DNA of 64,000 bases. Origin: a virus. The DNA lies in the IMG/VR virus record IMGVR_UViG_3300010354_000053, positions 40,758 to 104,757 of that record, one strand, 5' to 3'. Each line of letters begins with the position of its first letter. Position 1 is the first letter of the stretch. This document shows, one piece after another, positions 2,897 through 61,832 of the stretch. The notes under the pieces are model-generated. The model was not told the origin of the DNA and ran no database searches. It saw nothing but the letters and a program-made list of their open reading frames with translations. Both the position numbers and the translations under genes were made by a program.

Positions 2897-3425
2897 TTTC
2901 TTGCACAGTTCGACTATTTCTAACAGTTTGTTCAAGTTCGGCCTCTGTTACAATCCAAGGTGGTACGCAAACCATTTTATGCTCTATTTTACCATATTGG
3001 ATATTAGATAAAAAAGGCTTCATGAGTTCTTGTTCATCTTGATGGCGATTTTCTTTAATATAACCAATGTTATCGATATTTTTATCCAGTAATTTAGACA
3101 TACAAGCCATACAAGGCTGAACACTCACAATAAATTGGTATTTATGGATATTGATTGTTTGAATCATCTTTTCCAGAAGATCTGTCTCCGCATGGCGAAT
3201 TAAGAATTTTTTAGCAGGATTTTTATCAATATTTAACTCGGCAAGAGCTTTTGAATTTTTTTCAAAAGCAGAAATTATCTTGTTAACGCCATAAGCAATA
3301 ACAGAATTTGTGGATGTATCTACAGCAATTGCGACTACCTGAACTAGAGGATCACTACTTCGTTTTTTAAGAACGTCAAATAGGATCTCGGTACTAACTA
3401 CAGGGAAGGAGCCGTAGACAAACAT
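2889..3425 (-). CDS. dCMP/cytidine deaminase-family zinc enzyme
   Basis: 178 aa. The zinc and proton-shuttle signature of the deaminase fold is clear: RHAETD (H78, E80) and QPCMACM (C105, C108). The likely reaction is dCMP to dUMP, the precursor from which 5-hydroxymethyl-dUMP or dTMP is made. The N-terminal third is less typical of phage dCMP deaminases, so another cytosine or nucleotide substrate is possible. ATG at 3425 has AAGGAA 7 nt upstream and lies 28 nt inside the kinase gene. Its placement at the end of the predicted thymidine-modification block supports a role in supplying dUMP for modified thymidine synthesis. Confidence 0.75.
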   Translation of the reverse strand: MFVYGSFPVVSTEILFDVLKKRSSDPLVQVVAIAVDTSTNSVIAYGVNKIISAFEKNSKALAELNIDKNPAKKFLIRHAETDLLEKMIQTINIHKYQFIVSVQPCMACMSKLLDKNIDNIGYIKENRHQDEQELMKPFLSNIQYGKIEHKMVCVPPWIVTEAELEQTVRNSRTVQEND

Positions 3426-4036
3426 TCTTTAATTCCTTGTTGTAGTTTTTGTACTACTTGTTCGGGTGAATCTTCAAAATCTACTTTTACGAGAGTAACA
3501 GGAGCGCGACATAAATCCAAGAAATAACCTACGCACATCTTTGCCCTATCCATAAACACTTGAACATTATTGAATGTCAAGTCAGGAAGTCTTTCTTCAA
3601 CAATACCAGCATTTTTTCTTCGCAAAGAAAGACGTTCTCTAATCTTTTCTACAGTAAAATCGTAGTGTACAACAACGACTTTAATGTCTTCTTTATGGCG
3701 ATATTCATTAACCATTTCTACCCAACGAGACGTAGACATAACGCCATCGATAATAACTGTATCTGACAGCTCGAGAGCATCAAAGAAACCTGTTCTAACT
3801 AGCGATGGTGTAGTTATGGAATCTGTGCCAGAATTTTTATTACCAACCAAAACACAATTATCATATTGAACAATACTATATTTCTGCTCAATTGTAGCTC
3901 CCCTGTTGGGCATACGTTTTTTAATAAATTTACCCATTTTAGAAATTTCTTTGCCATCTCCTTGGCAAAAAGTATTTCTGGTGGTGGTTTTGCCGGTTGC
4001 ACCTGCGCCCATTAGAAAAATTGCTACTTTAGTCAT
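3398..4036 (-). CDS. P-loop kinase, probable 5-hydroxymethyl-dU DNA kinase
   Basis: 212 aa. Walker A is LMGAGATGKTTT (about residues 9-19). A following SGTDS (69-73) and an IIDGV strand (95-99) match what I recall of the HMUDK kinases, which phosphorylate 5-hydroxymethyl-dU in DNA to the pyrophosphate that is later displaced by an amino acid. ATG at 4036 is preferred over 4114: GAGGG is well placed and the start overlaps the upstream stop as ATGACTAA. It lies two genes downstream of the pyrophosphorylase-like gene in the same overlapping string. A general polynucleotide or nucleoside-monophosphate kinase is the main alternative. Confidence 0.65.
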   Translation of the reverse strand: MTKVAIFLMGAGATGKTTTRNTFCQGDGKEISKMGKFIKKRMPNRGATIEQKYSIVQYDNCVLVGNKNSGTDSITTPSLVRTGFFDALELSDTVIIDGVMSTSRWVEMVNEYRHKEDIKVVVVHYDFTVEKIRERLSLRRKNAGIVEERLPDLTFNNVQVFMDRAKMCVGYFLDLCRAPVTLVKVDFEDSPEQVVQKLQQGIKECLSTAPSL

Positions 4037-4403
4037 GAAAGCCCTCAATATACTCTTGATTTGTTTTATGGCATTTAAAACAAATTCTGTTTCCGTTTGG
4101 TGAAAAGAAAACATTGTTGCATTTTAAACAATTTCTATTTTTTGCAATGGCAGAACCGTGTTCTGAAAAAAACTTCTCGTCCGCTTTTCGTAGTTCTTCC
4201 ATAAGCTGTTTGTGTCGCTCTTTACGTCTATTTGACGTTCGCTCTTTATTCTTTTTTATTTTTTCTGTTAAATCAATCCAGTTTAAATTATGTTGAATAA
4301 CATAATTTTGCATGAATGATTCATGATTATCAATGGATGGTACTGGAATATTGAGAGTTTTGCAAAACATTTTTAATGTAATTTTAGTTTCATTAACAAT
4401 CAT
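4029..4403 (-). CDS. Small protein with C-terminal zinc ribbon
   Basis: 124 aa. A basic, helical middle (KKNKERTSNRRKERHKQ) precedes a four-cysteine zinc ribbon, CLKCNNVFFSPNGNRICFKC, at the C-terminus. Such ribbons bind nucleic acid or hold protein contacts. An AAGGG lies 7 nt before the ATG. It sits between the pyrophosphorylase-like gene and the kinase, overlapping the kinase start, so it could be a DNA-binding partner of the modification enzymes; this is inferred from position only. Confidence 0.65.
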   Translation of the reverse strand: MIVNETKITLKMFCKTLNIPVPSIDNHESFMQNYVIQHNLNWIDLTEKIKKNKERTSNRRKERHKQLMEELRKADEKFFSEHGSAIAKNRNCLKCNNVFFSPNGNRICFKCHKTNQEYIEGFHD

Positions 4404-4413
4404 TACTCTGCCC

Positions 4414-4743
4414 TTATTCTAATTCAGCACCCATGTCTACGATACCTTCTTTCTGCAACAACGAAAGGGCTAACACTCGTTTAGAATCTGCAAAATTTCT
4501 TGTTTCATTGAAGGCACTGCGAAAAGTTTGCAGAACTTCTTGAGCAGCTTTAAATTCCGAATTAGCTTCCATTTCTTTCTTTGCCTTCAAAACATGCGCA
4601 TTCTGTTCTGCAATGATCTGTTTTAGTTTATCGACGTTATAAGTTTTTAGCATTTGCAATTCATCGTAAGAATAATTCTTTACAAACGCTTTTTCAATAT
4701 CACTCAGATGGCTGTACTTATTTGACTTACTCTTCTTTCTCAT
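4414..4743 (-). CDS. Unknown helical protein within the modification block
   Basis: 109 aa, charged and predicted almost wholly alpha-helical, with a basic start (MRKKSKSNKYS) and coiled-coil-like middle. The start codon overlaps the stop of the upstream gene as ATGA, so translation is coupled to it. No family recognised. It may be a subunit or accessory factor of the adjacent enzymes. Confidence 0.6.
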   Translation of the reverse strand: MRKKSKSNKYSHLSDIEKAFVKNYSYDELQMLKTYNVDKLKQIIAEQNAHVLKAKKEMEANSEFKAAQEVLQTFRSAFNETRNFADSKRVLALSLLQKEGIVDMGAELE

Positions 4744-5603
4744 TTAACATCCTCCACAAAAAGTAATTGTTTCGTTTTAATGTATGCAGTTTTTTCTTTT
4801 ACTGAAAAATGGTGTTGTAAAAACTTATGATCAAATTCACATTCATCTATTAAATTCCAAAATACGTTATCTGAATACAATTCTGGTTTTTTAAGAACTA
4901 AAAATTCATTAATGTCATGTCCAACTACATAACTCCCCTTGTGCAGTATTTTAGGCACTTTACACAAACAGCTTTCTACTTGACCAATCGGCGCGTTCCA
5001 AATTTTTGATAAATTCCAACCCAAAGCTTCCCATTCTGGGATTATGTCTTTAGTAAATTTTTGATTAATACCATATAGGTAACGAAGTCCAAATACTGGT
5101 CCAGTATTTTTGTTAGGATCAGAGCTTTCGATTCCTAACCCATTAATACGAAAGCTTTTATATCCAAGCGTTTGATCCATGAGTTCACAAGTTTTATAGC
5201 AGGCCCAATCACCAAAATATGGAATAGTCTTGAATAACTCTCTTCCGCTGTTAAAATCTAACTGCTCTGTTTTAAGCGTTGATTCAACTGTTAACCATCT
5301 ATCAAAAGCTTTTTCAAAATTTTCAGTTCGTCGCACTTGTGGTGTTCGACCACGTTCCATTCCAAACTTACTGATTTTTTCAAACATCTGAATGGGTGTT
5401 TTACCTTCAGCAATTCCCCGCATGAATAAAACCATGCTTTCGATAGAATAGTAATATACGTACATGAAAATTGCGGTTTCGGGGTCAAATTTTTCGTGAT
5501 TAATAATTGATTTTAGAAAAGGATAAACAGGGTCAACATCTTGTGTGCGAATTAAAGCTAAGCTAGCCTTCTCGAAATCAGAAAAGTTAAATAGATGTTG
5601 CAT
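4740..5603 (-). CDS. Alpha-glutamyl/putrescinyl thymine pyrophosphorylase-like protein (DNA base hypermodification)
   Basis: 287 aa, all-helical. PYFGDWACYK (128-137) followed by a conserved helical stretch, and QVESCLCK (208-215) with GHD (228-230) toward the C-terminus, resemble my recollection of the helix-hairpin-helix-like aGPT-pyrophosphorylases. These replace pyrophosphate on activated 5-hmdU in DNA with an amino acid or amine. The ATG at 5603 has an AGAG about 10 nt upstream and overlaps the flavoprotein gene by 17 nt; the longer reading from 5654 has poorer support. The flavoprotein gene overlaps upstream and the kinase follows two genes later, which strengthens the call. Certainty is moderate because the family is divergent. 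Confidence 0.6.
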   Translation of the reverse strand: MQHLFNFSDFEKASLALIRTQDVDPVYPFLKSIINHEKFDPETAIFMYVYYYSIESMVLFMRGIAEGKTPIQMFEKISKFGMERGRTPQVRRTENFEKAFDRWLTVESTLKTEQLDFNSGRELFKTIPYFGDWACYKTCELMDQTLGYKSFRINGLGIESSDPNKNTGPVFGLRYLYGINQKFTKDIIPEWEALGWNLSKIWNAPIGQVESCLCKVPKILHKGSYVVGHDINEFLVLKKPELYSDNVFWNLIDECEFDHKFLQHHFSVKEKTAYIKTKQLLFVEDVK

Positions 5604-6492
5604 ATAAATACTCTTGAACGCCGTCAGCAAGTTCTTTAATGTATGTTGGAGCATGGCGTAAGCCGTTTGCAGATTTTGGAGTTACATACATACAATTACC
5701 TTCTTGAATAAACGCATGTAAATAGTCTTCCATATAAGCTGGCCTCCAGCCTGTTTTTGGCTCTCCCGTTATTTCAATACTTACCTGGCCATTGGTTACT
5801 TTAGAAATATGCTCAATAATTTTTTGAATTTTATCTTTAATTTCTAAATCTTTTTGTTCTTTTTGATAAATAAAATGAGTACCAAGATAATAGGCATCGG
5901 TAGTGGGTTTTGGATATAGATACGCATTAATAAAACGACCTTCTTTTGCATTTAAACAAAATCTTGGATAACGATCAAATACTTCTCCGCTTGGCTTGCA
6001 CTCTACCGACCATCCCCAACGATAATCGGTAGGTTTATATTTATGAAAACCATTAGCGTGAATAATAAGGCGATTTGTTGGAGTTTTATTTATGCGAGAA
6101 GAAAAGAAAAAATCTTGGGTAAACTGCACAAACGCTTGTACATTAACATGCATTGATTGTTTGTTTAAAACTTTAATATTACCTATAGTTTGCACGTACC
6201 TGAGTTCTTTAGAATTATTATGATGCGGAATGCTTTTTTGGGTATATCCGTAAGGGACAGCTTCTGAAAAAAGAATAATTGGTCTGCGGTCTGTTTGGCT
6301 GAACGATTGTAGCCAAAGGTTATAATTAATTGCATCTAGCTCTTCACCTGATGGGTAAATACACCCAGTACTTGCCTTCCATGCACCGGGTGAATCGTCG
6401 TCTTCCCACGAAAACATAATTTTTCTACTAGTAAGCTCCCAAGCAAGAAGTGAACCAATCAATCCAAAGCCTTTAATATGTACTGTAGACAT
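5587..6492 (-). CDS. FAD-dependent oxidoreductase of the glycine/D-amino-acid oxidase type
   Basis: 301 aa. The N-terminal dinucleotide-binding motif HIKGFGLIGSLLAWEL (GxGxxG at residues 8-13), the STGCIYPSGEE segment, and the C-terminal GWRPAYMED and ANGLRHAP stretches follow the order seen in DAO-type flavoproteins. In some phages with hypermodified thymidine a flavin-dependent lyase of this class acts on glycine attached to 5-hmdU and leaves 5-aminomethyl-dU. The gene overlaps the pyrophosphorylase-like gene, as expected for consecutive steps. A stand-alone amino-acid oxidase is the alternative. GGGA lies about 9 nt before the ATG. Confidence 0.7.
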   Translation of the reverse strand: MSTVHIKGFGLIGSLLAWELTSRKIMFSWEDDDSPGAWKASTGCIYPSGEELDAINYNLWLQSFSQTDRRPIILFSEAVPYGYTQKSIPHHNNSKELRYVQTIGNIKVLNKQSMHVNVQAFVQFTQDFFFSSRINKTPTNRLIIHANGFHKYKPTDYRWGWSVECKPSGEVFDRYPRFCLNAKEGRFINAYLYPKPTTDAYYLGTHFIYQKEQKDLEIKDKIQKIIEHISKVTNGQVSIEITGEPKTGWRPAYMEDYLHAFIQEGNCMYVTPKSANGLRHAPTYIKELADGVQEYLYATSI

Positions 6493-16436: not shown

Positions 16437-17104
16437 TGATAATGATCACGGACGATATTTATAATAAAAGCATTTATCCGCAGTGCGATTTTAGCATCAT
16501 TGAATTGCCCCTTGAGTCCAAAGACGCTAAAAAAATGTACCAGCAGCTGTATAAAACTCAAAAAAATAACCATATTTCCCTTCAATACAGCAGACTTCCA
16601 AAAAAACTGCGCCTCAAAGCTATGAGCAATGTTTATTTGGGCGATGAAATTGGTTTTAAATTTTATGATTATATAACAATTGTTTCGCAGCAGCCGTGTA
16701 GGCAGCCTCCTAATCATTTATCCCCACTTGGAGAAGTCGGCATCTTATTTACTAAGAACGAAGAGCCGAATACTAAAACAACCAACTGGTTTAATCCCGA
16801 AATTGGCGATTGCACAAACGTTTGGGATGTTAGTTTTCAGCCAAAAGAGGGAAGCGGGCAGACTGTATCAAAAAAATTTGCGTGGGAGATAGGTTATCTT
16901 TTAGCAAATTTAGCGAGTCCGCTCATTTGTAGAAAATTTTTAATACTGGGTCTGCCTGAGTTGTCAATGGCAAGGTTTGCATTACATTCAAACTTGCAAA
17001 TGTATGCAATAACTTCAGATGAGTTTACGGCTAATAAAATTATCAAAGATTATGATAAGGCGTGTAAAAGCGAGGTACAGGATAAATCATGGCAAAAGAA
17101 ATAA
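16406..17104 (+). CDS. Unknown protein, possible degenerate DNA methylase
   Basis: 232 aa. Several stretches have the order and spacing of a permuted (beta-class) N4/N6 DNA methyltransferase: GILFTKNEEP near EYIL-like strands, GDCTNVWDVSF, a helix after GSGQTVSKK, and a closing strand like those around the SAM site. The catalytic DPPY and the glycine-rich SAM loop are not present, so activity is unlikely. This is a weak resemblance; unknown is the safe label. AGGAA precedes the ATG, which overlaps the primase gene by 31 nt, and its end overlaps the chaperonin start. Confidence 0.55.
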   Translation: MQITSADGRIVIMITDDIYNKSIYPQCDFSIIELPLESKDAKKMYQQLYKTQKNNHISLQYSRLPKKLRLKAMSNVYLGDEIGFKFYDYITIVSQQPCRQPPNHLSPLGEVGILFTKNEEPNTKTTNWFNPEIGDCTNVWDVSFQPKEGSGQTVSKKFAWEIGYLLANLASPLICRKFLILGLPELSMARFALHSNLQMYAITSDEFTANKIIKDYDKACKSEVQDKSWQKK

Positions 17105-18699
17105 AATATGGACACGAGGCAAGAAATAAAGCCGTTCAAGCATTGGAAGAAATTTCCTATATTGTTGGCAGTACTCTTGGGCCTGGTGGTAAAACTGTTC
17201 TTTTAAGTCGTCGTAATTCTGCCGATGAAATTTCTGTTTCTCATACTAAAGACGGGTTTAATGTATTAAACAGTTTGCGTTATACCGATCCGGTATTTGA
17301 CGCCGTGCATAAACTTTGCCTACAGGCTAGTGCAAACTCGGTTGTGTCATCCGGAGACGGCACAACTTCAACTATTGTAATGGCTGCAGCTTTTGCTAAG
17401 GCTCTGGTCAATAGTGGAAATAATCCACAGGCGGCAGCTCGAAAGTTTCGCAAAGAAATTCAAAATGCTATAGAGGCTATTAAAAGCGAAGCTGTGGCTA
17501 GTGATGAAGCAGTTTATAAAGTGGCGCTTACTAGTGCTAACGGAGATGAGGAGCTTACTAAGTTTGTAATGGATGCAGTATCTCAAAGCTCAGCTTATGG
17601 AACTGTAATTGTAGAAAAGAACCCTATGTCTAAAGATCCTTATAGGATTGATAAGGAATACGGTTACCAAGCTGGCACAGGATACAGCTATTATCTGCCA
17701 TTTGCGCAAAGCATTCGACCAAACTTAGCAAATAATGCCGAGTTTACTCTTAAAAAATGCCATGTATTGCCATATAACGGCGACCTAATGATGATGTCTC
17801 AAGTTAAGCCAATGCTGGAGTCTTTAGCAAGAAATGCAACCGGTGGATGGAACTTATTGATTATTTGTCATCAGATTGCTGAAGATTTGGCTGCAAATTT
17901 GGCATTTTTTAATCGACAAAACCCTAATGCAAAAGTGTTTGTTGTAAGAACCACGCCCTCGGCAGAGCTGAATGGGCAGGTCCAACAACTTAATGATATT
18001 GCCTCGTATACTGGGGCAAAAGTTATGGATGGGGGCAGTTTAACTCACTTGGTGATAGAAGATTTTGGCGACTGCCAGTCAGTTCGGATTGGACCACATA
18101 AAACTTTCATCTTAGGCAAATCTGAACGTAATTGGATTATTGAGCGAGCAGAACAAAATGAAGAATCGGCTCGCCTAGCACCAAGCCAAATGGATCGTGA
18201 CATCATTCATTCCCGTAATGCATCGCTGACTGGTGGTTGTGTCAAGCTTATTATTGGCGGTTCGTTAATGAGTGATCTACAAGAACGAGCCGACCGTGCT
18301 GATGACGCTATTAAAGCTTCGCAAGCTTGTTCACGCTCAGGAGCTCTGCCGGGCTGCGGTGCATCGTACATGCGAGCGGGGCAGCAAGCTAAGGTTTCTG
18401 AATCCGTACAGACAGCGCTTGCGAGCATTCATAATGTGATTATGACAAATTTTGGCGAAACGCCTATGAAGCATTTTGATAAAAATCAAACATATTATAT
18501 TACCGACAATGATATCCAAAAGGTCGAAAACTTTTTAGACCATGGAGTTGCTGATAGTTTTGAAACTATTCGGTCAGTTATCACAAACGCCTTTGAACTA
18601 GGTTTGTTGGTGACAAATTTAGGTGGATATAGCCTTGAAGCAGATTTAGATCAAATGGAGCAGGCGGCAAGGGCTAAAGAAATTTTAAGAGGCGTATAG
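17089..18699 (+). CDS. Phage-encoded GroEL-type chaperonin
   Basis: 536 aa, near the usual GroEL length of about 545. Signature pieces are present: TLGPGGKTV (29-37), SGDGTTSTIV with the ATP-site aspartate (88-97), ADDAI containing the equivalent of the hydrolytic aspartate, and ALPGCGASY in place of GVVPGGG. The C-terminal GGM repeat is missing (ends ILRGV). It should fold phage proteins in an ATP-dependent barrel, as reported for jumbo-phage chaperonins such as that of phage EL. No GroES-like gene is recognisable in the window, so it may work alone or with host GroES. Start overlaps the previous gene by 16 nt. Confidence 0.88.
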   Translation: MAKEIKYGHEARNKAVQALEEISYIVGSTLGPGGKTVLLSRRNSADEISVSHTKDGFNVLNSLRYTDPVFDAVHKLCLQASANSVVSSGDGTTSTIVMAAAFAKALVNSGNNPQAAARKFRKEIQNAIEAIKSEAVASDEAVYKVALTSANGDEELTKFVMDAVSQSSAYGTVIVEKNPMSKDPYRIDKEYGYQAGTGYSYYLPFAQSIRPNLANNAEFTLKKCHVLPYNGDLMMMSQVKPMLESLARNATGGWNLLIICHQIAEDLAANLAFFNRQNPNAKVFVVRTTPSAELNGQVQQLNDIASYTGAKVMDGGSLTHLVIEDFGDCQSVRIGPHKTFILGKSERNWIIERAEQNEESARLAPSQMDRDIIHSRNASLTGGCVKLIIGGSLMSDLQERADRADDAIKASQACSRSGALPGCGASYMRAGQQAKVSESVQTALASIHNVIMTNFGETPMKHFDKNQTYYITDNDIQKVENFLDHGVADSFETIRSVITNAFELGLLVTNLGGYSLEADLDQMEQAARAKEILRGV

Positions 18700-26312: not shown

Positions 26313-27293
26313 ATGCAAGCTTTGCCAAAAATTTTGCAGAAGCGGACGAATTTTAGACCATTTATATACCCAACAGCCTTCGATATTTTTGAAAAACAGC
26401 AAAAAGCACATTGGAATCCTTCAGAAGTTGAAATGGATGCTGATGTCCACCAGTACCACACTGAATTTTCTGAAAAAGAAAAACATGCAATTACAACTAT
26501 CTTAAAAATTTTCACGCAAACAGAAAATATTGTAGCTGATTATTGGACAAATGTTGTTGCCAAATGGTTTGTCCAGCCGGAAATTTGTATGATGGCAAAC
26601 ACATTTGCTTCATTCGAAGCAATTCATGCACAGGCATATGACAAGCTTAATACTGCTCTTGGTCTTGATACAAAAGAATTTTATTTGTCGTTTCTTGATG
26701 ATGAAGATTTAAAACATAAAACAGAATTTATTGAATCTAAAATGAAGATCAACGACGTAACTGACCTGCCGTTATCCCTTGCCGTTTTTTCCGGCTTTAC
26801 TGAAGGCGTATCGTTATTTAGCTCATTTGCAATTCTATTAAATTTTCAACGTTTTAATAAACTAAAAGACGTAGCAAATATTATTAGTTGGTCTATTCGA
26901 GATGAGAGCCTTCATTCTTCTGCCGGATGCTGGCTATTTAAAACACTTGTCGCTGAAATCAACTATTCTAAAGAACAGATAGCTGTTCTTGAAGAAGAAG
27001 TAAAAACTGCAGCAGAGCATATTCACGATATGGAAATGATTTATATCGATAAAATCTTCTTGGAAGACGAACTTGAAGGATTGAAAAAAGACGATATGAA
27101 AAACTTTATCAAACATCGTATCAATCAAAAAATGCGCGATCTTGGATTTAATGACATTTATACTAATCTTCCAACAGATAAAGTCGGTTCGTGGTTTAAT
27201 CCTCTGAACCAAGCCGTAGAATTTGTAGACTTCTTTGAAGCTAGGTCTACAAATTATGTCAAAGGTTGGAATTTCGGCAACATTAGCTGGTAA
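26313..27293 (+). CDS. nrdB: Ribonucleotide reductase small subunit (class I)
   Basis: 326 aa. Diiron ligands are seen as TENIVADYW (E71), FEAIHAQAY (E102, H105, radical Y109 in the position of E. coli Y122), FTEGVSLF and RDESLHSSAG (E, H). It generates the tyrosyl radical used by NrdA to reduce NDPs to dNDPs. The radical tyrosine is kept, so a standard class Ia/Ib mechanism is expected. A GGGAG lies upstream. 30 nt before nrdA. Confidence 0.93.
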   Translation: MQALPKILQKRTNFRPFIYPTAFDIFEKQQKAHWNPSEVEMDADVHQYHTEFSEKEKHAITTILKIFTQTENIVADYWTNVVAKWFVQPEICMMANTFASFEAIHAQAYDKLNTALGLDTKEFYLSFLDDEDLKHKTEFIESKMKINDVTDLPLSLAVFSGFTEGVSLFSSFAILLNFQRFNKLKDVANIISWSIRDESLHSSAGCWLFKTLVAEINYSKEQIAVLEEEVKTAAEHIHDMEMIYIDKIFLEDELEGLKKDDMKNFIKHRINQKMRDLGFNDIYTNLPTDKVGSWFNPLNQAVEFVDFFEARSTNYVKGWNFGNISW

Positions 27294-27323
27294 GCATCAC
27301 CCTCCTACAAGAGAATATAAATT

Positions 27324-28991
27324 ATGAAACTAAAAGACCTAAAGTCTTCCCTCGAAGCTCCCCAATGGCTTACTGAAGAAGGATTCATTACTCTTTCTAA
27401 GGGATATTTACTACCAGAAGAAACGCCAAAGGGTATGTACAGGCGTGTTGCTAAGGCAGCTGCCTCTTATTTGCCGAATAATCAAAAAAAATGGGAAGAA
27501 GATTTCTTTAACGTTATTTGGAATAATTGGCTTTGCCTCGCCACTCCGGTTGCATCTAACTTTGGCGCTGAGCGCGGACTACCAATCAGTTGTTTTGGTA
27601 GTTATGTTGACGACAGTATTTATTCTATCTTCGATAAAAATCTTGAAGTTGCAGTTCTTAGTAAGCATGGTGGTGGCACTTCTAGTTTTCTTGGTGACGT
27701 GCGTGGGCGCGGTTCTTTGATTAATGGCGGTGGTTCTAGTAACGGAACCACTAGTTGGGTCGAAGTATTACGCACAACCGTTAACCAAGTATCACAAAAC
27801 GGCATTCGCCGTGGTCAACATGCTACATACATTCCAATCGATCATGATGATTTTGATGAATTTGTTGATGTAAGAAAACACTTAGATGGTATCCATCTTG
27901 GCGTAAGTATTACTGATGAATTTTTGCAAAAATGCGAAAACGGAGACCAAGAAGCGCTTCGTCGTTGGTTCAAACTATTAAAGGCAAGAATGGAAACTGG
28001 CGAGCCTTACATTCTTTTTATTGATCGTGTTAATAAACAAAACCCCCCTATGTACGCAAAAAATAATCTAAGCGTCAAAGCAAGCAATCTTTGCTCAGAA
28101 ATTGTTTTGCACTCCGATGCAGAACACTCTTTTGTTTGTTGTTTGTCTTCTATGAATCTAGCAAAATGGGATGAATGGAAAGATACCAATGCAGTGTTTG
28201 TGGCGACCGTATTTTTAGATTGTGTAATGGAAGAATTTATTCGAAAGGCTTCTAAAATTCGAGGAATCGAAGCGGCGGTGCGCTTTGCGCAAAAATCAAG
28301 AGCGCTTGGTTTGGGTGTATTGGGCTATCACACATATTTACAGCACAATATGATTTCGTTCGATAGCTTGCAGGCAAGAATATTCAACCACACTTGGGCT
28401 AAATATATCAAAACTGAAGCGCAAAAAGCTACTGAATGGATGGCGCAAGAACTTGGCGAACCAGAATGGTGTAAAGGGTTTGGAGTTCGCAACACACATT
28501 TGCTTGCAATTGCACCTACAACATCCAATGCAATTATTTCAGGAGGTGTTTCTCAAGGAATTGAGCCAATCGTGGCTAATGCGTATGTACAAAAAACCGC
28601 AAAAGGGACTTTCATTAGAAAAAACCCTACTCTGGTGCAATATCTAGATAAATTAAGTCTAAACACTGATGATATTTGGGAAAAAATTATCGATAATAAC
28701 GGTAGTATTTCAGATATCATTGGTATTAGCGAAGAAGCTAAAGAAGTATTTAAAACTGCTTATGAAATTAACCAAAAAGAAATTATTTTTCAGGCTAATC
28801 AAAGGCAGAAGTATATTTGCCAGGCACAGTCCTTAAATTTATTCTTTGATGCTAATGAAAGTCCTGAGTGGATTCATAAAATCCACAAAGAGGCTGCGTT
28901 AATGCCAAACATTAAATCTTTATATTACGTAAGATCGATGGCTGGTATTAAAGCTGAAAAAGCTGAGGCTTGCAAAAGCTGCGAGGGTTAG
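27324..28991 (+). CDS. nrdA: Ribonucleotide reductase large subunit (class I), lacking ATP-cone
   Basis: 555 aa, short against about 760 in E. coli NrdA. Active-site cysteines are found in LPISCFG, SNLCSEI and CCLSSMNL, with the SGGVSQGIEP phosphate-binding loop and a C-terminal CKSC tail that is re-reduced by a thioredoxin-type protein. The N-terminal ATP-cone that gives dATP inhibition is missing, so the enzyme is probably free from that control, as is common in phage reductases. Coupled to nrdB. Confidence 0.93.
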   Translation: MKLKDLKSSLEAPQWLTEEGFITLSKGYLLPEETPKGMYRRVAKAAASYLPNNQKKWEEDFFNVIWNNWLCLATPVASNFGAERGLPISCFGSYVDDSIYSIFDKNLEVAVLSKHGGGTSSFLGDVRGRGSLINGGGSSNGTTSWVEVLRTTVNQVSQNGIRRGQHATYIPIDHDDFDEFVDVRKHLDGIHLGVSITDEFLQKCENGDQEALRRWFKLLKARMETGEPYILFIDRVNKQNPPMYAKNNLSVKASNLCSEIVLHSDAEHSFVCCLSSMNLAKWDEWKDTNAVFVATVFLDCVMEEFIRKASKIRGIEAAVRFAQKSRALGLGVLGYHTYLQHNMISFDSLQARIFNHTWAKYIKTEAQKATEWMAQELGEPEWCKGFGVRNTHLLAIAPTTSNAIISGGVSQGIEPIVANAYVQKTAKGTFIRKNPTLVQYLDKLSLNTDDIWEKIIDNNGSISDIIGISEEAKEVFKTAYEINQKEIIFQANQRQKYICQAQSLNLFFDANESPEWIHKIHKEAALMPNIKSLYYVRSMAGIKAEKAEACKSCEG

Positions 28992-32963: not shown

Positions 32964-32991
32964 AGGCTGGGTTTCCCCAGCCTTTTTTTTT
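32964..32991. terminator. Bidirectional terminator after the capsid gene
   Basis: 8-bp stem AGGCTGGG (32964-32971) / CCCAGCCT (32976-32983) with a TTTC loop and T8-9; the left side gives a U-rich run on the minus strand, so it also serves the convergent GMP-reductase-like gene, whose stop codon overlaps it. Confidence 0.9.
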
Positions 32992-34012
32992 ATTTCCTAA
33001 AATGTGATCCGTTTTCTTTTACGCCATTTGCAGTAACTAAAACAAACTCAGCAATGCTATGGAATTGCTCTAAATTAGCCGCGCCGCAATAAGAAAATGC
33101 TGATCTAAGACCACCATTAATTTGTTGCAATATAGTTTGTGTTTCTGTAATTGAAGAAATTATATGAGAAGAGCCCTCTGGCGCTCTGTGACTAGCTTCT
33201 TTATTTTGGTCTTTATAAGAGCTGAGGCTTGCAGAACCTCTAAATTCATTAGGACGCTCACAAGCTGTTGAGCCGGCTAACATTCCGCCAATCATAACTG
33301 CTTTTGCACCAGCTGCTAATGCCTTAGCAATATCTCCGCTTGTTTTACAACCACCATCGGCAATTAATGGATATTTATCTGGAGAATTATTCATTATGGC
33401 TGACAGCTGAGGAAATCCGCATCCGGTCACAGTTCGAGTTTCGCAGACAGAACCTGGGCCGATTCCAATTTTGTAACCAATAATATTACTTGGTTTTCTG
33501 TGTAAAACTGATCCATTGTCTGTTACCGATTTTAAAAATGGAAAAATATCAATAAAATTACCAATTACATAATCAATGTGAGGATGATCTTCTGCAATAT
33601 CTGCAAGAAACTCTGCAACTTGCGATTGAGCGGCGTGTGCAACATCAATAACAAACGTTTTGACTCCTAATTTTTCTAGCTCATCGTGCCGCTCTCTACT
33701 TTTTTTATCAATACCGATAGATGCCCAAAAATTTATACCCTGTTTAAGTAAACTTTCGGCAATAATACAGTTTTCTTCGACACTCATAAATCGATGGAGA
33801 CAGCCGATTCCACCCGCTTGGTGCATTGCTATACACATATTATGGCCAGTAATTGTGTCCATGTTTGCAGAAATAACTGGGAGTGTAAGATTAGTATAAC
33901 GGCCAATCTTGGTTGATAAATCAACTTCTGACCTAGAAGTAATTGTCGAAAACTTTGGGACAATTAAAACATCATCAAACGTATATCCTATTTTTTGACT
34001 TAAAAATGCCAT
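32990..34012 (-). CDS. guaC: GMP reductase/IMP dehydrogenase-family enzyme, probably GMP reductase
   Basis: 340 aa. The catalytic-cysteine loop reads GIGPGSVCETRTVTGCGFPQ, and TGxGFPQLSA is closer to GMP reductases than to IMP dehydrogenases. There are no CBS domains, again like GuaC. Also conserved: FDDVLIVPKFS at the start and DGGCKTSGDIAKALAAGA for phosphate binding. GMP reductase would convert GMP to IMP with NADPH and shift purines toward adenine nucleotides. ATG at 34012 has GAGG. The substrate preference cannot be settled from motifs alone. Confidence 0.78.
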   Translation of the reverse strand: MAFLSQKIGYTFDDVLIVPKFSTITSRSEVDLSTKIGRYTNLTLPVISANMDTITGHNMCIAMHQAGGIGCLHRFMSVEENCIIAESLLKQGINFWASIGIDKKSRERHDELEKLGVKTFVIDVAHAAQSQVAEFLADIAEDHPHIDYVIGNFIDIFPFLKSVTDNGSVLHRKPSNIIGYKIGIGPGSVCETRTVTGCGFPQLSAIMNNSPDKYPLIADGGCKTSGDIAKALAAGAKAVMIGGMLAGSTACERPNEFRGSASLSSYKDQNKEASHRAPEGSSHIISSITETQTILQQINGGLRSAFSYCGAANLEQFHSIAEFVLVTANGVKENGSHFRK

Positions 34013-34034
34013 TTTGTCCTCGTTATGCACGCCA

Positions 34035-34379
34035 TCAAAGTTCTCCAATCAAATAATCAACAATAAACTTATACTTTTTTCTTTTATCTTTAGATGAAGA
34101 CAATAATTTAATTAAATCATCGAGGCTATCAACAGTTTTTGTTCTATAGTAGCCGTTTGTTTCGGCTGCATGCATAACAACCCAGTTAGATATTTCCGCT
34201 TCGCTTAGAATGAAATCGTCCCAACGACATTTTTGTAAAAACTTATCGAAAGACAATGGTGCGTAATAGGTTTGTGTTGTGTGGAATTTTGGAATTACTT
34301 TCTTGTATATACGAATATCTCTGTCAAGAGATAACAATAAGTAATTATTTTCGTTATTTTTTGTTTGTTGTGTTTCCAT
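34035..34379 (-). CDS. Unknown protein
   Basis: 114 aa, charged, with no recognised motif. It lies 22 nt upstream of the GMP-reductase-like gene in the same direction, so it may be co-transcribed. Confidence 0.55.
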   Translation of the reverse strand: METQQTKNNENNYLLLSLDRDIRIYKKVIPKFHTTQTYYAPLSFDKFLQKCRWDDFILSEAEISNWVVMHAAETNGYYRTKTVDSLDDLIKLLSSSKDKRKKYKFIVDYLIGEL

Positions 34380-42508: not shown

Positions 42509-44428
42509 CTAGAATAAAATAGTTGCACTACCCGATTTTAACATTTTTTCTGCGTCTTCTTCGTTCTTTTTCTTAATATCTATATTGTATTCAGAAGCAT
42601 AATGAATACGCAATGCTTCTTGCATGCCTTCTACTGTAGTAAAACTAGGCTTTTTAGTATAATCAAACTGATCAGCCTGCGAAGCCTGAATTACCGATGC
42701 ATTGCTGGTTATAAATGGATCGATTGCATATCGAAGAGCGTCAGGACCATGGGTGAAATCGTCATCAGCAAATCGCGAGTAATCATACCCCATTGCCCCC
42801 TTAGCGTATGTCCAGTTTTCCATGCATTTAATTAAAAACAAATTTTTGGGGTCATCTAATATGATGAAATGCGCCTGTTGTCTCATTGCGTTCCATAATT
42901 TTGAACGAATCCATGATACGCCAGTATCAATAGTTAATGGTTTTTCTCCCCTAGCAGGCATATTCATGCTCCCCGCTACAGAAGTTGAAGATTTGTCGGC
43001 TGTGTCTGGACACAGGAGGTCAAATCCGTACTTAAGATAAATGTTTTCTTTCACAAAAGCAAGCCAGTCCGGATTTGCGTAACCGGTTGAATGTTCTGTA
43101 TGGAGAACAAGCATTTTATCGTCTGATTTTTTATATGCTATCAAAATAGCTACTGCTGGGTCAATGAATCCAAAGTCAACACCACAATGCAATCGCCAGC
43201 CATTTGCTCTTAGTTCTCTAATTAATTCATCTTTTGAAATATCACGTATGTTGCCAAATCGATCTGTAGGAAAGGTACTGAAGGCAAAGTTCCAACATTC
43301 TTGGACTGTCTTTACATGAATATTACGATTGAATTTATTGAACACAATACCCGAAGACTCAGGTTTTAAGTTAAGAATCTGTGCGTTAATCTTATCTGGA
43401 TCGCCGGCATTGAGCAGAGTATTCTTAACAAAGCCTAAGTCGCGTAGCATTTTTGATTTAGATTGTTGTTTAACTGATTTTGTTCGACAAATAGAAAATA
43501 CAGGACATGTTTTGCAGCCTTCATATGCCAATATAGATGAATATACAGCCTTAGATTCCGGATTAAGAGCATTAAATGCATTATTTGGCAATACTTCTAG
43601 CGTCTCGGGATGGACATGGAGCATACTTTGCGGTAAATCGGGCTTATGGCGCTCGGGTGGACATGTTTGCATCCAATCTACAATAGACCATTTGTGTAGT
43701 CTGATGCCTGAATTTGGCATATCTGCTTCGTCAATTTTTTGCTGGATTGGTCCAGAACCAGATTTTCTGGACGACAAGTAAATAAAGATTGGCGGTTTAC
43801 CAGAGCGGTCAGGGTCAGCAATGAAAGTTGCCTCAGAAAGAATATCTTTATCAATGAGGTCTAGCTCATCGAAAATGAGGCATGATGCACGTTGGGCGTT
43901 TGCAGACTTTTTAGTTGATACAACGACTTGTAGTTTGCTATATCCAACGGGACGATGAGGTGATGGTGGTAATCTATTAAGCTCTTTTATTCGTTTACTA
44001 TCAGTTTTTGCGAAATTAGAAATAATCGGCAAAGCGAGGTGCTTGTCCAAATAACGAATTGCGGCCAAAGATTGGTCTAAAATTGCTGCCATGTGGACTA
44101 TATCTCTGGCAAAATGAACCATAAGTAAGAATTCAATAATAGAAGATGCTAATGTTTTTGCTGAGTTACGGCTTGCAGCTACAACGAACGTTGTTCTGTT
44201 GGGATCGCCGTCTTTAGCGGCAGAATAAACGTCCCAGATAAAATCCATTGGATTAGAATTACTATTATCATCTACGGTGCAGTCCGGTAAATCAATATCT
44301 AAAAATGTCTTAATCCACTGCTTAAGCTGAGCTTTACTTTCACAAACAGCAAAAAATTGCTCTTCATACAGCTGATTTAACGCTGCATTAAGCTGATTTT
44401 CATTTGTTAATTGCTGTTTTTTATTCAT
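42509..44428 (-). CDS. Terminase large subunit (TerL)
   Basis: 639 aa. Packaging ATPase: Walker A variant VVAASRNSAKT (about 82-92) and Walker B CLIFDELDLID (about 185-195). The RNase H-like nuclease has CGVDFGFIDPA, GFDLLCPDTADK and FADDDFTHGPDALRYA. A cysteine group CKTCPVFSIC near residue 315 separates the domains and probably binds a metal. It pumps DNA into the prohead and cuts it. Its start overlaps the hypermodification gene by 4 nt, unlike usual terS-terL coupling. Confidence 0.92.
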   Translation of the reverse strand: MNKKQQLTNENQLNAALNQLYEEQFFAVCESKAQLKQWIKTFLDIDLPDCTVDDNSNSNPMDFIWDVYSAAKDGDPNRTTFVVAASRNSAKTLASSIIEFLLMVHFARDIVHMAAILDQSLAAIRYLDKHLALPIISNFAKTDSKRIKELNRLPPSPHRPVGYSKLQVVVSTKKSANAQRASCLIFDELDLIDKDILSEATFIADPDRSGKPPIFIYLSSRKSGSGPIQQKIDEADMPNSGIRLHKWSIVDWMQTCPPERHKPDLPQSMLHVHPETLEVLPNNAFNALNPESKAVYSSILAYEGCKTCPVFSICRTKSVKQQSKSKMLRDLGFVKNTLLNAGDPDKINAQILNLKPESSGIVFNKFNRNIHVKTVQECWNFAFSTFPTDRFGNIRDISKDELIRELRANGWRLHCGVDFGFIDPAVAILIAYKKSDDKMLVLHTEHSTGYANPDWLAFVKENIYLKYGFDLLCPDTADKSSTSVAGSMNMPARGEKPLTIDTGVSWIRSKLWNAMRQQAHFIILDDPKNLFLIKCMENWTYAKGAMGYDYSRFADDDFTHGPDALRYAIDPFITSNASVIQASQADQFDYTKKPSFTTVEGMQEALRIHYASEYNIDIKKKNEEDAEKMLKSGSATILF

Positions 44429-45348
44429 AGCCCATAATACTTGCGGTTTCTTCCTTTTCCTTCAAGGAGACTGCAATATTTTCTAAACTCGCAAGCAATT
44501 CCTTCAATATTACAAGTTGTGATTAGTATTTTTTTATCATCCTTAGCTAAATAAGGAAAACTATCAACTGGTTGGTGTTTCATCAGAGTGAAGGCAACGT
44601 CTTCAGGTTTAGCTTTAGGATTGAGTATCTTACAAGTAGGGGCTGCTCCGCGACCCATTTCTAAATATTTAAACTCATCAATATATTCGGGAAATTGATA
44701 ACCAAAATCCATCATAATTTCTGTCATATGGAATGGATTTTTAAACCCTAGAATACTATGAATGCTATTTGTAAGATACTGTATGCTGTGTTTTTTGTTT
44801 GACATCAACAAATCATAAATAGGATGAACAAGTTCTGGTAATTTTTCATACAAAAATTCTTCGCGATTTTTAGCCCCAATAATTGACAATCCTGCTTGCG
44901 GAAACAAATAGGCTGTATTAAATTTAGGACCTTCTATTGAAGAAAACCTAGTTCTGGATTCTAAATTTTCAGATTTATCTAGGGAAATATTACCAGTAAT
45001 TTGAAGAGTGCTAGGCATATTAATATATCTAGCAAACATTATATTAAGTAATGCTAGTTTTTTATCGTGAAGGCACGGTTGTAGCCACTCGTGAATCCAC
45101 AATGAAACCTTATCAAGTTCTCTATAACAATTAGTGAAATAATTTCTGTTTAAAATTACATCTTCAGTCCATGGTCTAGGTTGTCCACTATCCTTAAGAT
45201 GAAAGATTTTCATTCTTTCGATTGCAAAATCCCAGTACCTTTGCTCAATCGCTGAATCTATTGCAACTTCTCGACCGTTCATCCATCCAAATTCTTGGTA
45301 TTGGTCAAAATGTTTATATAAATTTAAAGCTTTAGCTTTTGCACTCAT
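44425..45348 (-). CDS. Putative DNA base hypermodification protein (HMUDK-helical / thymine pyrophosphorylase family)
   Basis: 307 aa, helical. The N-terminal half reads RYWDFAIERMKIFHLKDSG, PRPWTEDVILNRNYFTNC and YRELDKVSLWI, matching my recollection of the family signature FWxFxxERxxI...PPWTxDPIL...FxNVxRExDRVT. The C-terminal part has FRKYCSLLEGKGRNRKYYGL, matching the family's CEF-x-KY...G-x-GR-x-K-x-x-Y end. This family acts on DNA carrying activated or modified 5-hmdU. Its location between TerS and TerL, with 4-nt overlaps on both sides, means it would be made with the packaging motor. Which step it performs is unclear. Confidence 0.72.
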   Translation of the reverse strand: MSAKAKALNLYKHFDQYQEFGWMNGREVAIDSAIEQRYWDFAIERMKIFHLKDSGQPRPWTEDVILNRNYFTNCYRELDKVSLWIHEWLQPCLHDKKLALLNIMFARYINMPSTLQITGNISLDKSENLESRTRFSSIEGPKFNTAYLFPQAGLSIIGAKNREEFLYEKLPELVHPIYDLLMSNKKHSIQYLTNSIHSILGFKNPFHMTEIMMDFGYQFPEYIDEFKYLEMGRGAAPTCKILNPKAKPEDVAFTLMKHQPVDSFPYLAKDDKKILITTCNIEGIACEFRKYCSLLEGKGRNRKYYGL

Positions 45349-46049
45349 CTAGTTTTAACCTTTTCCAACAATTCTAACAGCTCTAATCTATCTTTATCAG
45401 ATTTTTCTTCAATTAAAATGGGATCTATTGGTTGTGCTTCAATCGTTTCAACTTTATTTTTTGCAGGATTATTTAAATTCGCAACGTTCACATTAACCAC
45501 GGTGCCACTTGCCGACTTACCTTCAGCTTCTTTAGTTTGTAAAGATTGCAACATATCGAGTAGAGTCATAAAATCTCTATAGTTTTTTGGTATGAGCGGA
45601 CAGTTTTTTGCCTGTGTTGGATCTTTAATAACTTCGGCTAGTTGCTGCTTGTATAGTGCGGCTGTTGCAACAATTGCGTCGGTCACCAAATCGATGGCGG
45701 CAGCGTCCGCCCTTGTAACCTTTTCGCCTGCACGAACACTCGTGACCAATTTTTTTCGATCTTGCCATTTATAAAAAATACCGGTGTATAGCAAAATCCC
45801 CAAGGGAATGTTTAGTTTGTTAGCAATTTCTTCCCAACTTGCTCCCATATAGTAAAAATAAAAAGCGGATTGCTCTACCTGCGAGGGTAATCGACTACCA
45901 ATATTTTTAGCTGTTGTTTTTGCAAGTTCAAACTCCTCTACAGTCATATCTACTGGTCGTTCATCAAAACAACTTAATGGGTCTTCTCGTTTAATAAATG
46001 AAGATTCAGAATAGTTTGGTGTGATTGCATTTTTATTATTCTTTTTCAC
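45345..46049 (-). CDS. Terminase small subunit-like protein
   Basis: 234 aa. A helix-turn-helix (ASWEEIANKLNIPLGILLYT, about 70-90) and a helical C-terminal region fit small terminase subunits that bind packaging sites. Basis is mainly position upstream of TerL plus the HTH; sequence identity to known TerS cannot be checked here. First gene of the packaging string. A -10-like TACTAT reading on the minus strand lies about 30 nt upstream. Confidence 0.65.
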   Translation of the reverse strand: MKKNNKNAITPNYSESSFIKREDPLSCFDERPVDMTVEEFELAKTTAKNIGSRLPSQVEQSAFYFYYMGASWEEIANKLNIPLGILLYTGIFYKWQDRKKLVTSVRAGEKVTRADAAAIDLVTDAIVATAALYKQQLAEVIKDPTQAKNCPLIPKNYRDFMTLLDMLQSLQTKEAEGKSASGTVVNVNVANLNNPAKNKVETIEAQPIDPILIEEKSDKDRLELLELLEKVKTR

Positions 46050-46160: not shown

Positions 46161-49013
46161 TTAGGCAGTTACGCCGGTTGCTCGACGAGCGAGAACATCA
46201 ACCGTAATAAATTCAACTGCTTCCACAGGAAATACGCTAATTGTAACTTTGTACGTATTGCCATCAAGAATAATTGAATCAACGCTGAACTGGCGCAATG
46301 CTCCTTGGCCAACAAAACTCAATAAGATATCTTGCACTGACTTAGATACTACAGAAGGAGAAACGTCTGTCGTTCTTTCGCCAATAAAATTATCTAGAGT
46401 TGAGCGTAGTGTTTTTACGACTTCATCGACTACAAACTGAACATTTACACGTTCGTAGTACCATCCTTTTGGATCATTTTGCCTTGAACGGGTTGATAAA
46501 TCTGGAGATTCCATACGAACACCAAAACCTGTAACTGATTTAAGAACAATCAGTCCAGCTTCGATTGCTTCGTCTAATTCTTTTGTATCTGCATCAAAGT
46601 CTGGCACAAATACGTCAGAATAGAGGCTTAGATCTCCAATATGTTTTACATTTGAAACTTGGAAACTTTTTCTAAGAAGGGAAGTTCCAAGGATTGCCTG
46701 AGCGCGGCCCGCAGCAAGAGCACAAGCAAGCATCCATGGTAAAAACCACTGAGCATCGCCATTAGAGTTAATTGAACGAACCTGTTGAAATGCCATTTGA
46801 ACACGTTCGCTACTAAGTTCCGCGGCTTTTTGTTTAGCTACTGAAAATGAGCTATGGATACTGCACAACGCAAACCGTTCACGTTGAAATTGAATGCTGC
46901 TAGCAGTTTGAACATGGCCTCTAACGGCAGAATTAACTGCGTCGATTGAATATTGACTTGCTTGATCGGTTAAGCCATCTTCAATATCTTTAGTAGAATC
47001 ACGACTAAAGAGAGGAATGACCTGTGATACATCAATTTTCAGCGCAGCGTCGAGTGCTGATTGAATAGAAACTCCGGATGTTGCGCCGATTGAACCCCCT
47101 TCCAAGAATTTAGGAGAAGAAGTCACATCTGGTAGGCCAACAAGAGATGGAGATGCTGAATTCTCAACAAAGCTAATAAGTCCAAAGTTATTATCAATCA
47201 AAGATTTAAAGTCAAAATAGTCTGATTTTAAAAGACCGGGAAATGAATTAACTTCATGGCCGGTACAAATACCAACTGCCTCAACCTGATCAAGAACAGA
47301 TGGGCTAAGACTGCGCCATCTCGCATCTGGAACTCTTGCTGAATAACCAGTTTTTGTACTGATGAATGCAATCAAATCACCGATGGTGTTGTATTTTGAT
47401 AACATTACATCAAGATTAACACCAGAACCACCTGTAACAGAAGTTTTGAGCTTTTTGTCTTTTGTGATAGTAACTGAAGCTGTTGTACCCGCATAACCTA
47501 GTTCAAGAACAATACGACCACCAACAGGTGTGTTAGGAAATTGCGCCCCATCTGACAAACGAGATGCTAAAATTCTTACTCGTTTTTCAGATGCAGATCG
47601 CAAGATTACTGGTCCTACAACAGAACTAATGCCGTTTTCTCTGATATAAAAGGGCATAGTTTGACTATCAAGAGCAGTTGCTGCAACAGATACAGGATTA
47701 TTTACTGAAGAACCGGTAATGCATTTTACGGCTTTGATAACCGCCGCGCCGGCAGAAGTCACAAGCCACGCACCGACGTTTTTAGAACCTGCGCCTTTTA
47801 AAACACTATCAGAAGGGACAACAAGCAATTCACCAATCTTTGGTGCTACCGCAAATGCACCACTGCTAAGAGCGAACGTTCCTTCAGATCCATCTACAGT
47901 TAATGAAACAGAAGCGGAGAGTGATACGTTGGAAGAAACGGCTGCCTTTTTAGCAGACGTCGCCATGAATTTAGAAGGAGCCCAAATTTCTCCGCCCGGA
48001 GCATAGATCTCTGCACACGCGGCTGCACCATTTTTTGTAGTTTCTGTAACTTCAAAAGAAACAGGGGCAAAAACCATCATTTCTGCGGTAGCTGTTGCAG
48101 ATTGGTCTCCAGAAACCGCACCAGAAACTGCAACACACTCTTGAATTGTTCTTTGTCCCGCTGAAACGCAGGCGTCTAAACGATCTAGAACCATTGAAGA
48201 AGAAGTAATTGTTTGGATTTCGTAGTTACCACAATTTTCTTCGCCAGCGCCGGAAAGAACAGATGCTACTGGAATATAGACAATGTCTCCAGCAACAATA
48301 GAAGATGGGAAGGCTCCAGCAGATCTTGAAATTGTAATTTTTGTTGGGTGGTCTACGTCTGGAGAAAGGGACAAGGTTTGTCCGTCAACAAGAGCTAATG
48401 ATTTTAATTCACCACCAGAAGCAGAAAACCCAACTGCGGAAGCATTAAAAATTGCTACTACTTCTGCAACAGTCGCTTCTGGGGGAGCCAGAAATTCTTG
48501 CTCAGCGCCGCCGGATACACGAACTTTATATGCACCACCACTTGTACCCATTAGAGCTCTAGCGGTTGATTTAGGTTTAATCTCGGCAGAAGCTTGTTCG
48601 ATTTTTGCAGAAATTGCATTGCCATCTTCACCGTATTCAGCGGCAGCAATCGTCGCATAAAGGCTAGCTCCACGCATGATATTCATAGAAGCTAGGCCGG
48701 ATTCATTTGTTTTGTAAACAAAAAGGCTGTTAAGAGATCCGGTGAATGCTGGACTAGCTTGATTTGAAAACAGCATTCTTGCCGCATCAACAATTGGACC
48801 AGAACCGTAATAGTTTTTAACTGATTGATAATCCGTGAAAAAAGTACGGCCGAGGTCAAGAAGAGACCCAGGAACACCTTTTGAGGCTTCACCGATAATT
48901 AAAATATTGCGCGGGCCAGGAGCAACATTCGCTAGGTTATCTTCTACCTTTACAGAAGAATAAACACCAGGAACTACAACTCTGGTTCCGTTAATCACAG
49001 CAGATAAAGTCAT
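46161..49013 (-). CDS. Contractile tail sheath protein
   Basis: 950 aa, longer than the T4 sheath (659). N-terminal VPGVYSSVKVEDNL with NILIIGEASKGVPG, and the C-terminal domain with GWYYERVNVQFVVDEVVKTL, DNFIGERTTDVS and TYKVTISVFPVEAVEFITVD, are typical sheath features. The middle carries a large beta-rich insertion. It shows that the virion has a contractile tail. A -10-like element is 41 nt upstream of the ATG; terminator follows. Confidence 0.88.
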   Translation of the reverse strand: MTLSAVINGTRVVVPGVYSSVKVEDNLANVAPGPRNILIIGEASKGVPGSLLDLGRTFFTDYQSVKNYYGSGPIVDAARMLFSNQASPAFTGSLNSLFVYKTNESGLASMNIMRGASLYATIAAAEYGEDGNAISAKIEQASAEIKPKSTARALMGTSGGAYKVRVSGGAEQEFLAPPEATVAEVVAIFNASAVGFSASGGELKSLALVDGQTLSLSPDVDHPTKITISRSAGAFPSSIVAGDIVYIPVASVLSGAGEENCGNYEIQTITSSSMVLDRLDACVSAGQRTIQECVAVSGAVSGDQSATATAEMMVFAPVSFEVTETTKNGAAACAEIYAPGGEIWAPSKFMATSAKKAAVSSNVSLSASVSLTVDGSEGTFALSSGAFAVAPKIGELLVVPSDSVLKGAGSKNVGAWLVTSAGAAVIKAVKCITGSSVNNPVSVAATALDSQTMPFYIRENGISSVVGPVILRSASEKRVRILASRLSDGAQFPNTPVGGRIVLELGYAGTTASVTITKDKKLKTSVTGGSGVNLDVMLSKYNTIGDLIAFISTKTGYSARVPDARWRSLSPSVLDQVEAVGICTGHEVNSFPGLLKSDYFDFKSLIDNNFGLISFVENSASPSLVGLPDVTSSPKFLEGGSIGATSGVSIQSALDAALKIDVSQVIPLFSRDSTKDIEDGLTDQASQYSIDAVNSAVRGHVQTASSIQFQRERFALCSIHSSFSVAKQKAAELSSERVQMAFQQVRSINSNGDAQWFLPWMLACALAAGRAQAILGTSLLRKSFQVSNVKHIGDLSLYSDVFVPDFDADTKELDEAIEAGLIVLKSVTGFGVRMESPDLSTRSRQNDPKGWYYERVNVQFVVDEVVKTLRSTLDNFIGERTTDVSPSVVSKSVQDILLSFVGQGALRQFSVDSIILDGNTYKVTISVFPVEAVEFITVDVLARRATGVTA

Positions 49014-60775: not shown

Positions 60776-60803
60776 AGTGAAAAGAATAAGTAAGGTGGAA
60801 AGA

Positions 60804-61832
60804 ATGAGTGCAGATTTACTGATTGGAGCCCCAGACTTATTTAAAGAATATCTTCAGTCTAACCCCTATTTATTTGAGGCGGGGGCTAGTAAATCTATTA
60901 AAATGCACGAACTCATGCCGTATAACAAAACTGGGATTTTACCAGAACTAGAGCTACAGATTAGGCAACTCCATAAGAAGTATCATCCGAATATAATCAC
61001 GCCAAGCACTAAAATCGTTGTGTCAAATGGCGCAACACATATGTTAATGGCTCTACTCGGCTTGGCCGCCGATTCTTATTCTTCTGTTTATGTGCCAAAA
61101 CCATATTGGTTTAGAATTCCAGATATGGCAAAAATGCAGCATGCTAATATTACAGATCAGATTCAAACAGAAAGTCAAGTGCAACTAATTACATATCCAA
61201 ATAATCCCGATGGAAAAATTTTAAGTAATTTTGGAAGTTGGCCAAACGTATGGTATGACGCTGTTTATCACTGGCCATGGTATTTCAGAAGTCAATCAGA
61301 TTGGGAAAATAATCCGCTTCCTTCAATACCAGAAATTGCTATCTTTAGCCTCTCAAAATGCACAGGGCATTGTGGCTCTCGAATTGGATGGGCGCTAATT
61401 AATAGCGATCATCATTTAGCTAACTATTTAAATTCGTATGTTGAATATGATACGAGCGGAGTGTCAGTAGAGGCTCAGGCTCGTGCCGCAACGGTATTAG
61501 AAGTGTTTATGGCAAAAGATATCGGAAGTGAATATAAAAAACTTTTAGATGCAAGAAAAGATGAGCTACGCGAAGTGTTAAAAAAATTTTCCGATATTCA
61601 TGGAATAGAATTCAGTAATAAAAATTTTATGATTGATAATGGTATGTTCGGTTGGATTAACGATGAACACAATGCATTTTTGTATTCTGAAATCAATTTC
61701 ATGGACGGTCGAAAATGTGGGGCCGATAAAAAAGGGTTTTTACGTATAAACCTATGCGCCTCGTCAGAAAATTGGAATGAGGCTATGTTTAGATTAAACA
61801 TGTACCTATTTAATTTATGTGAGTCAATATGA
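60804..61832 (+). CDS. PLP-dependent enzyme, alliinase/tryptophan-aminotransferase (TAA1) type
   Basis: 342 aa, fold-type I. SLSKCTGHCGSRIGWALI holds the PLP lysine (K185) and closely resembles the alliinase/TAA1 motif SKxTGHxGSRxGWA. VSNGATHML (phosphate loop), TYPNNPDG (132-137 region) and WYDAVYHWPWY (150-160; compare YDxAYYWPxY) are further signatures, and the late FLRIN arginine should bind a carboxylate. ATG at 60804 is favoured (AAGGTGG upstream); a GTG at 60777 lacks a site. In plants the family splits cysteine sulfoxides or transaminates tryptophan; in this phage it could tailor an amino acid attached to thymidine. No such substrate is shown. Confidence 0.85.
   Translation: MSADLLIGAPDLFKEYLQSNPYLFEAGASKSIKMHELMPYNKTGILPELELQIRQLHKKYHPNIITPSTKIVVSNGATHMLMALLGLAADSYSSVYVPKPYWFRIPDMAKMQHANITDQIQTESQVQLITYPNNPDGKILSNFGSWPNVWYDAVYHWPWYFRSQSDWENNPLPSIPEIAIFSLSKCTGHCGSRIGWALINSDHHLANYLNSYVEYDTSGVSVEAQARAATVLEVFMAKDIGSEYKKLLDARKDELREVLKKFSDIHGIEFSNKNFMIDNGMFGWINDEHNAFLYSEINFMDGRKCGADKKGFLRINLCASSENWNEAMFRLNMYLFNLCESI

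Follow-up and report, generated by a model that had tools for sequence, protein, structure and literature searches.

An HMUDK_hel gene directly follows the putative small terminase subunit (TerS) gene in the phage analysed here, and the terS-HMUDK_hel pair is the conserved unit across its viral lineage. The protein family is a known one, but the gene lies outside the usual modification cluster and is read together with the putative terS. We favour, at a probability of about 0.5, a model in which a catalytic base-modifying protein is co-produced with TerS and, with the phage's own kinase and transferase, modifies DNA late, near packaging. The DNA analysed (the window, 64,000 nucleotides) comprises bases 40758-104757 of the 104,757-base IMG/VR virus record G000. 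This record is partial; ~54 kb found in a 169-kb relative (G002) are absent from it.

Table 1. Packaging and base-modification features of the window (positions are those of the window).
Feature	Position	Strand	Description and evidence
HMUDK_hel (PF18723) gene	44425-45348	minus	307 aa, ATG start; Pfam, 15 invariant residues, AF2/Foldseek
Putative TerS gene	45345-46049	minus	234 aa, GTG start, HTH-like region; position and weak HTH matches
TerL gene	42509-44428	minus	639 aa; motifs and weak PHROG terminase matches
terS/HMUDK_hel stop/start overlap	45345-45348	minus	4 nt, ATGA
HMUDK_hel/terL stop/start overlap	44425-44428	minus	4 nt, ATGA
P-loop kinase, remotely related to 5-hmdU DNA kinases	3398-4114	minus	Kinase HMM, Foldseek
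aGPT/ADDT-type amino-acid:DNA transferase homologue	4740-5654	minus	Family profile, hhalign, conserved motifs
dCMP deaminase, overlaps kinase gene	2889-3425	minus	PF00383, E 3.5e-7
109-aa ORF lying between the kinase and transferase genes	4414-4743	minus	Conserved in G002 and G021

A sequence-only reading of this DNA had described an open reading frame overlapping both terminase genes by 4 nt and had placed its product in the HMUDK_hel family. The open reading frame and both overlaps are real, the sequence motifs quoted in support are found in the 307-aa protein, and the family call is correct. Pfam returned a single family for the protein, PF18723 (HMUDK_hel), with an E-value of 1.8e-21 and 77.2 bits against a cut-off of 25; the same search gave no match to PF18724. 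All 15 positions that are invariant among 54 homologues (20-93% identity to the window protein) are retained: R45, P59, W60, F71, N73, R76, D79, R107, F206, D214, G232, G234, C286, E287 and K290. The gene is therefore predicted to encode an intact family member. The significant match in PHROGs was phrog_2396, a family without annotation. Estimates of dN/dS against close relatives were ~0.03-0.06, like those of TerS and TerL and approximate because dS is near saturation, and show that the HMUDK_hel gene is under purifying selection. Searches of genome_contigs with clade-specific patterns found no cellular relatives.

The AF2 model of the protein is confident (pLDDT 91.7, pTM 0.89). Its best matches among the viral models of BFVD were the HMUDK_hel proteins of phiRSL1, SP10 and PhiW-14 (E 4e-9 to 3e-7), with models of amino-acid:DNA transferases (ADDT) lower down, and its top PDB match was the 5-PmdU glycinyltransferase gp46/PUGT (8z2n; probability 0.90, E 0.25, TM ~0.45). 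Comparison of the HMUDK_hel and ADDT profiles was not significant (E 0.36), and any tie of HMUDK_hel to the amino-acid:DNA transferases would be weak and by fold only. An unrelated terminase accessory family, which the sequence-only reading had named as the result that would speak against it, did not turn up as a significant match in Pfam, PHROGs, NCBIfam, PDB sequences or BFVD. The family name derives from kinase fusions, and we know of no established reaction for stand-alone HMUDK_hel proteins.

The neighbouring genes were assigned with differing support. TerL carries a deviant Walker A motif (AASRNSAKT), DELD and VDFGF / DDDFTHGPDA, and has weak profile matches to phrog_6672 (E 7.7e-4) and phrog_5653 (E 1.3e-3). 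Profile searches gave no TerS match for the putative TerS, which is labelled from its position and an HTH-like region detected via weak sigma-factor matches. Directly upstream of terS lies the gene for an unusually long tail sheath protein (46161-49013, 950 aa), an order kept lineage-wide.

A search that started from TerS and made no use of HMUDK_hel gave 11 loci, and HMUDK_hel was directly downstream in every one (11/11). Identity among these loci falls to ~50% for TerS and ~36% for HMUDK_hel, and the gene stays behind TerS in both close (85-93%) and remote (35-41%) relatives. The TerS-side search also recovered the pair at locus L155 of a 187-kb phage, G021, which was absent from the results of the HMUDK_hel searches. 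The stop codon of terS overlaps the start codon of HMUDK_hel in every sequence inspected, giving ATGA or GTGA. All relatives in the terS-linked clade are metagenomic contigs of uncultured viruses of bacteria, representing ~8 independent lineages, as the contigs L007-L009 probably come from one phage, and likewise L016-L018.

The terL side behaves differently. TerL follows HMUDK_hel directly or almost directly in the window, L016, L122 and L155; in other relatives a 2OG-Fe oxygenase gene (L006, L007 and L012, with a broken remnant in L005), an RNA ligase gene (L045) or a small ORF (L044) intervenes, which rules out TerL as the conserved partner. The 2OG-Fe oxygenase is likewise ruled out as an essential partner: a protein search found none in G005 and at most a chance-level stretch in G000, and L005 keeps the remnant. 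Thus the proposed terS-hypermodification-terL order stands for terS-HMUDK_hel, which is fixed in the lineage, but not for the spacing to terL, which varies. The earlier suggestion of co-translation with the packaging motor needs the same narrowing, since the TerS-side overlap is conserved but the 4-nt terL-side overlap of the window phage is not, and the gene is coupled to TerS, not to TerL. The oxygenase genes lie at 6842-7495 in L007, 6842-7492 in L006 and 528-1184 in L012, with the L005 remnant at about 4560-4757; the L045 RNA ligase (4915-6069) has a PHA02142 OB-fold domain. TerL of the remote relatives is itself interrupted by intein-like insertions (L045 6132-8888, L044 5564-8896, L155 7745-10741), apparently two each in L044 and L045, near the Walker A and Walker B motifs; the L155 insertion has Hint and LAGLIDADG matches.

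In a phylogenetic tree, the terS-linked HMUDK_hel genes form a single long-stemmed clade (SH-aLRT 99), and the terS location is a lineage trait. A single insertion event suffices to explain one clade, and the oxygenase and RNA ligase genes enter the same operon too; moreover, the presence of a kinase gene and an ADDT-like gene in the genome points to a standard pathway. An ordinary genome-wide base-modification enzyme, whose gene came to lie behind terS by chance, was retained there through descent and bears no relation to packaging, is accordingly a possibility that we take seriously, although we consider it somewhat unlikely: the 4-nt coupling has outlasted divergence to ~50% (TerS) and ~36% (HMUDK_hel) identity, while the neighbouring inserts are gained, lost and degraded.

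At other HMUDK_hel loci the surroundings are mostly those of a modification cluster. A dUMP-hydroxymethylase homologue lies within 4 kb of HMUDK_hel in 37 of the 47 tree rows that are not terS-linked (54 rows in total), and in the annotated phages CN2, Sonora and RHph_I65 the HMUDK_hel gene is located among kinase and hydroxymethylase genes. TerL was detectable with the phrog_2 profile in 15 of 46 records of these other loci (phrog_9 added no record, and records without a TerL match are uninformative), and the nearest lay ~8 kb from HMUDK_hel, as measured from contig ranges.

The window phage carries further candidate modification genes. An HMM built from 24 canonical-locus kinases was run against 614 proteins from four phages; below E 0.01 its only matches were the P-loop kinase (E 6e-7) and the G002 orthologue of this kinase. 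The kinase has no clear Pfam match; its model (pLDDT 84) matches the 5-hmdU DNA kinases of PhiW-14 and SP10 in Foldseek, and a dTMP-kinase reading is disfavoured, as dTMP kinases rank far below these. It also matches phrog_800 (E 5.8e-5), which is labelled terminase small subunit and is probably a mislabelled P-loop family. For the transferase homologue, the PF18724 match is marginal (E 0.055; G002 orthologue, E 0.0021) and a two-sequence comparison with ADDT is not decisive; similarity becomes significant once relatives are added. The family profile including remote relatives matches canonical-locus aGPT/ADDT genes (E 2e-20 to 1e-12), and profile comparison with hhalign gave a probability of 99.2%, with conserved motifs kept. 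The 109-aa ORF between these two genes matched no family above its curated cut-off. Gene content indicates that the window phage has a split system, with kinase and transferase clustered and HMUDK_hel 40 kb off in the terminase operon. At locus L176, HMUDK_hel, the kinase and a transferase of the same type occur all together.

Other genes of related interest were also seen in the window. Since some hypermodified thymines are tailored by PLP enzymes, a role in modification is conceivable for a PLP enzyme of the alliinase/aminotransferase type (60777-61832). Within the ranges 17089-18699, 26313-28991, 32990-34048, 2223-2705 and 1310-2245, the window further encodes a Cpn60-type chaperonin, both ribonucleotide reductase subunits, an IMP dehydrogenase, a low-molecular-weight phosphatase and a possible amidoligase.

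The location of the HMUDK_hel gene among head and tail genes and its deep divergence from canonical members could suggest that the protein has been co-opted for packaging or head assembly and has lost any connection with DNA bases. We regard this as very improbable, as the invariant residues are retained, the protein matches no packaging family in Pfam, PHROGs or BFVD, and a kinase, an ADDT-like transferase and a dCMP deaminase are present in the same genome.

The identity of the modified base was approached through the hydroxymethylases. No dUMP-type hydroxymethylase was found in G000, a partial record. The G002 contig looks near complete, as genes of G000 span its ends. One thymidylate-synthase homologue each was found in G002 and G021, and Thy1 was not found in either. 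T4-type dCMP hydroxymethylases have Asp at a position that is Asn in thymidylate synthases and dUMP hydroxymethylases; in alignments, the G002 and G021 homologues have Asp there. At other HMUDK_hel loci, the residue is Asn in 72 homologues and Asp in a single one (L133), two added reference loci with Asp being excluded from this count. The substrate in the terS lineage may therefore be hydroxymethylcytosine, as suggested by one residue in two genomes. The link to 5-hmdU drawn in the sequence-only reading holds at the level of the HMUDK_hel family, but thymine chemistry cannot be assumed, the hydroxymethylase of these two large relatives being of the dCMP type. A search for T4-type glucosyltransferases gave no matches, but its controls were equally silent.

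The G021 phage argues against a simple pathway role, as it keeps the terS pair and an Asp-type hydroxymethylase with no detectable kinase or ADDT-like gene in its 187 kb. These genes may have diverged beyond detection or lie outside the contig; alternatively, HMUDK_hel acts alone there, which would favour a base-reading protein, non-catalytic or self-standing, that serves as a terminase accessory and helps TerS to identify modified DNA, for instance at a pac site. Coupling to TerS and the long stem of the terS clade are consistent with such a reader. We nevertheless consider it unlikely, because all of the family-wide invariant residues are retained and are not obviously needed for reading alone.

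In the model of a catalytic enzyme co-produced with TerS, the HMUDK_hel protein would act on hydroxymethyl-pyrimidines of replicated phage DNA, with the phage's own base kinase and aGPT/ADDT-like transferase as partners. The gene would have departed from a replication-linked modification cluster and become fixed behind terS with a stop/start overlap. Because this overlap is fixed, the enzyme would be made together with TerS, and DNA would be modified late, shortly before or during packaging. Catalysis, a DNA substrate, late timing and a functional tie to packaging are what we infer. In PhiW-14, modified bases are required for packaging full-length DNA, and in SP-15 they are apparently needed for packaging (PMC5977210); in P1, methylation controls pac cleavage (PMC6449724). 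These precedents make a packaging role plausible, and packaging-specific action of HMUDK_hel is plausible though unproven. A narrower version, in which the TerS-coupled enzyme modifies hydroxymethylcytosine and not hydroxymethyluracil at the time or site of packaging, and so marks or condenses DNA for the motor, is doubtful and a little less probable still than a base reader.

Why some phages (PhiW-14 and apparently SP-15) need hypermodified bases for full-length packaging is a question that goes back decades. With a modification protein tied to TerS lineage-wide, this group offers a concrete system for testing the link between base modification and packaging. Kinase/transferase hypermodification is known on thymine, and the dCMP-type hydroxymethylase of the relatives hints that it may occur on cytosine too.

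Comparison with known systems shows what is shared and what is distinct. The HMUDK_hel proteins of CN2, Sonora and PhiW-14 (gp72) have the family, invariant residues and fold in common with the window protein; however, in CN2 and Sonora the gene adjoins those for the kinase and the dUMP hydroxymethylase, whereas the window gene lies between terS and terL and is fused to neither. In contrast to the canonical thymine hypermodification locus, the window HMUDK_hel is neither fused nor adjacent to a P-loop kinase, the kinase-like gene being 40 kb away. The SP10-type 5-hmdU DNA kinase, also seen in Goe26, is a fusion of a P-loop kinase and HMUDK_hel whose helical domain matches the window protein, but the latter has no kinase domain and the phage encodes a separate, remote kinase. 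The gp46/PUGT (8z2n) and ADDT transferases may resemble the window protein in overall fold, with no significant profile similarity to ADDT. Finally, HMUDK_hel genes next to portal genes (L070/L072 and L077) provide a second instance of base-modification genes beside head genes; these portal-linked loci span 2165-6575 in L072, which also has an ADDT transferase and a methyltransferase there, and 3872-8031 in L077. They differ from the window gene in forming a separate clade (SH-aLRT 98), in being linked to portal and in showing no terS overlap.
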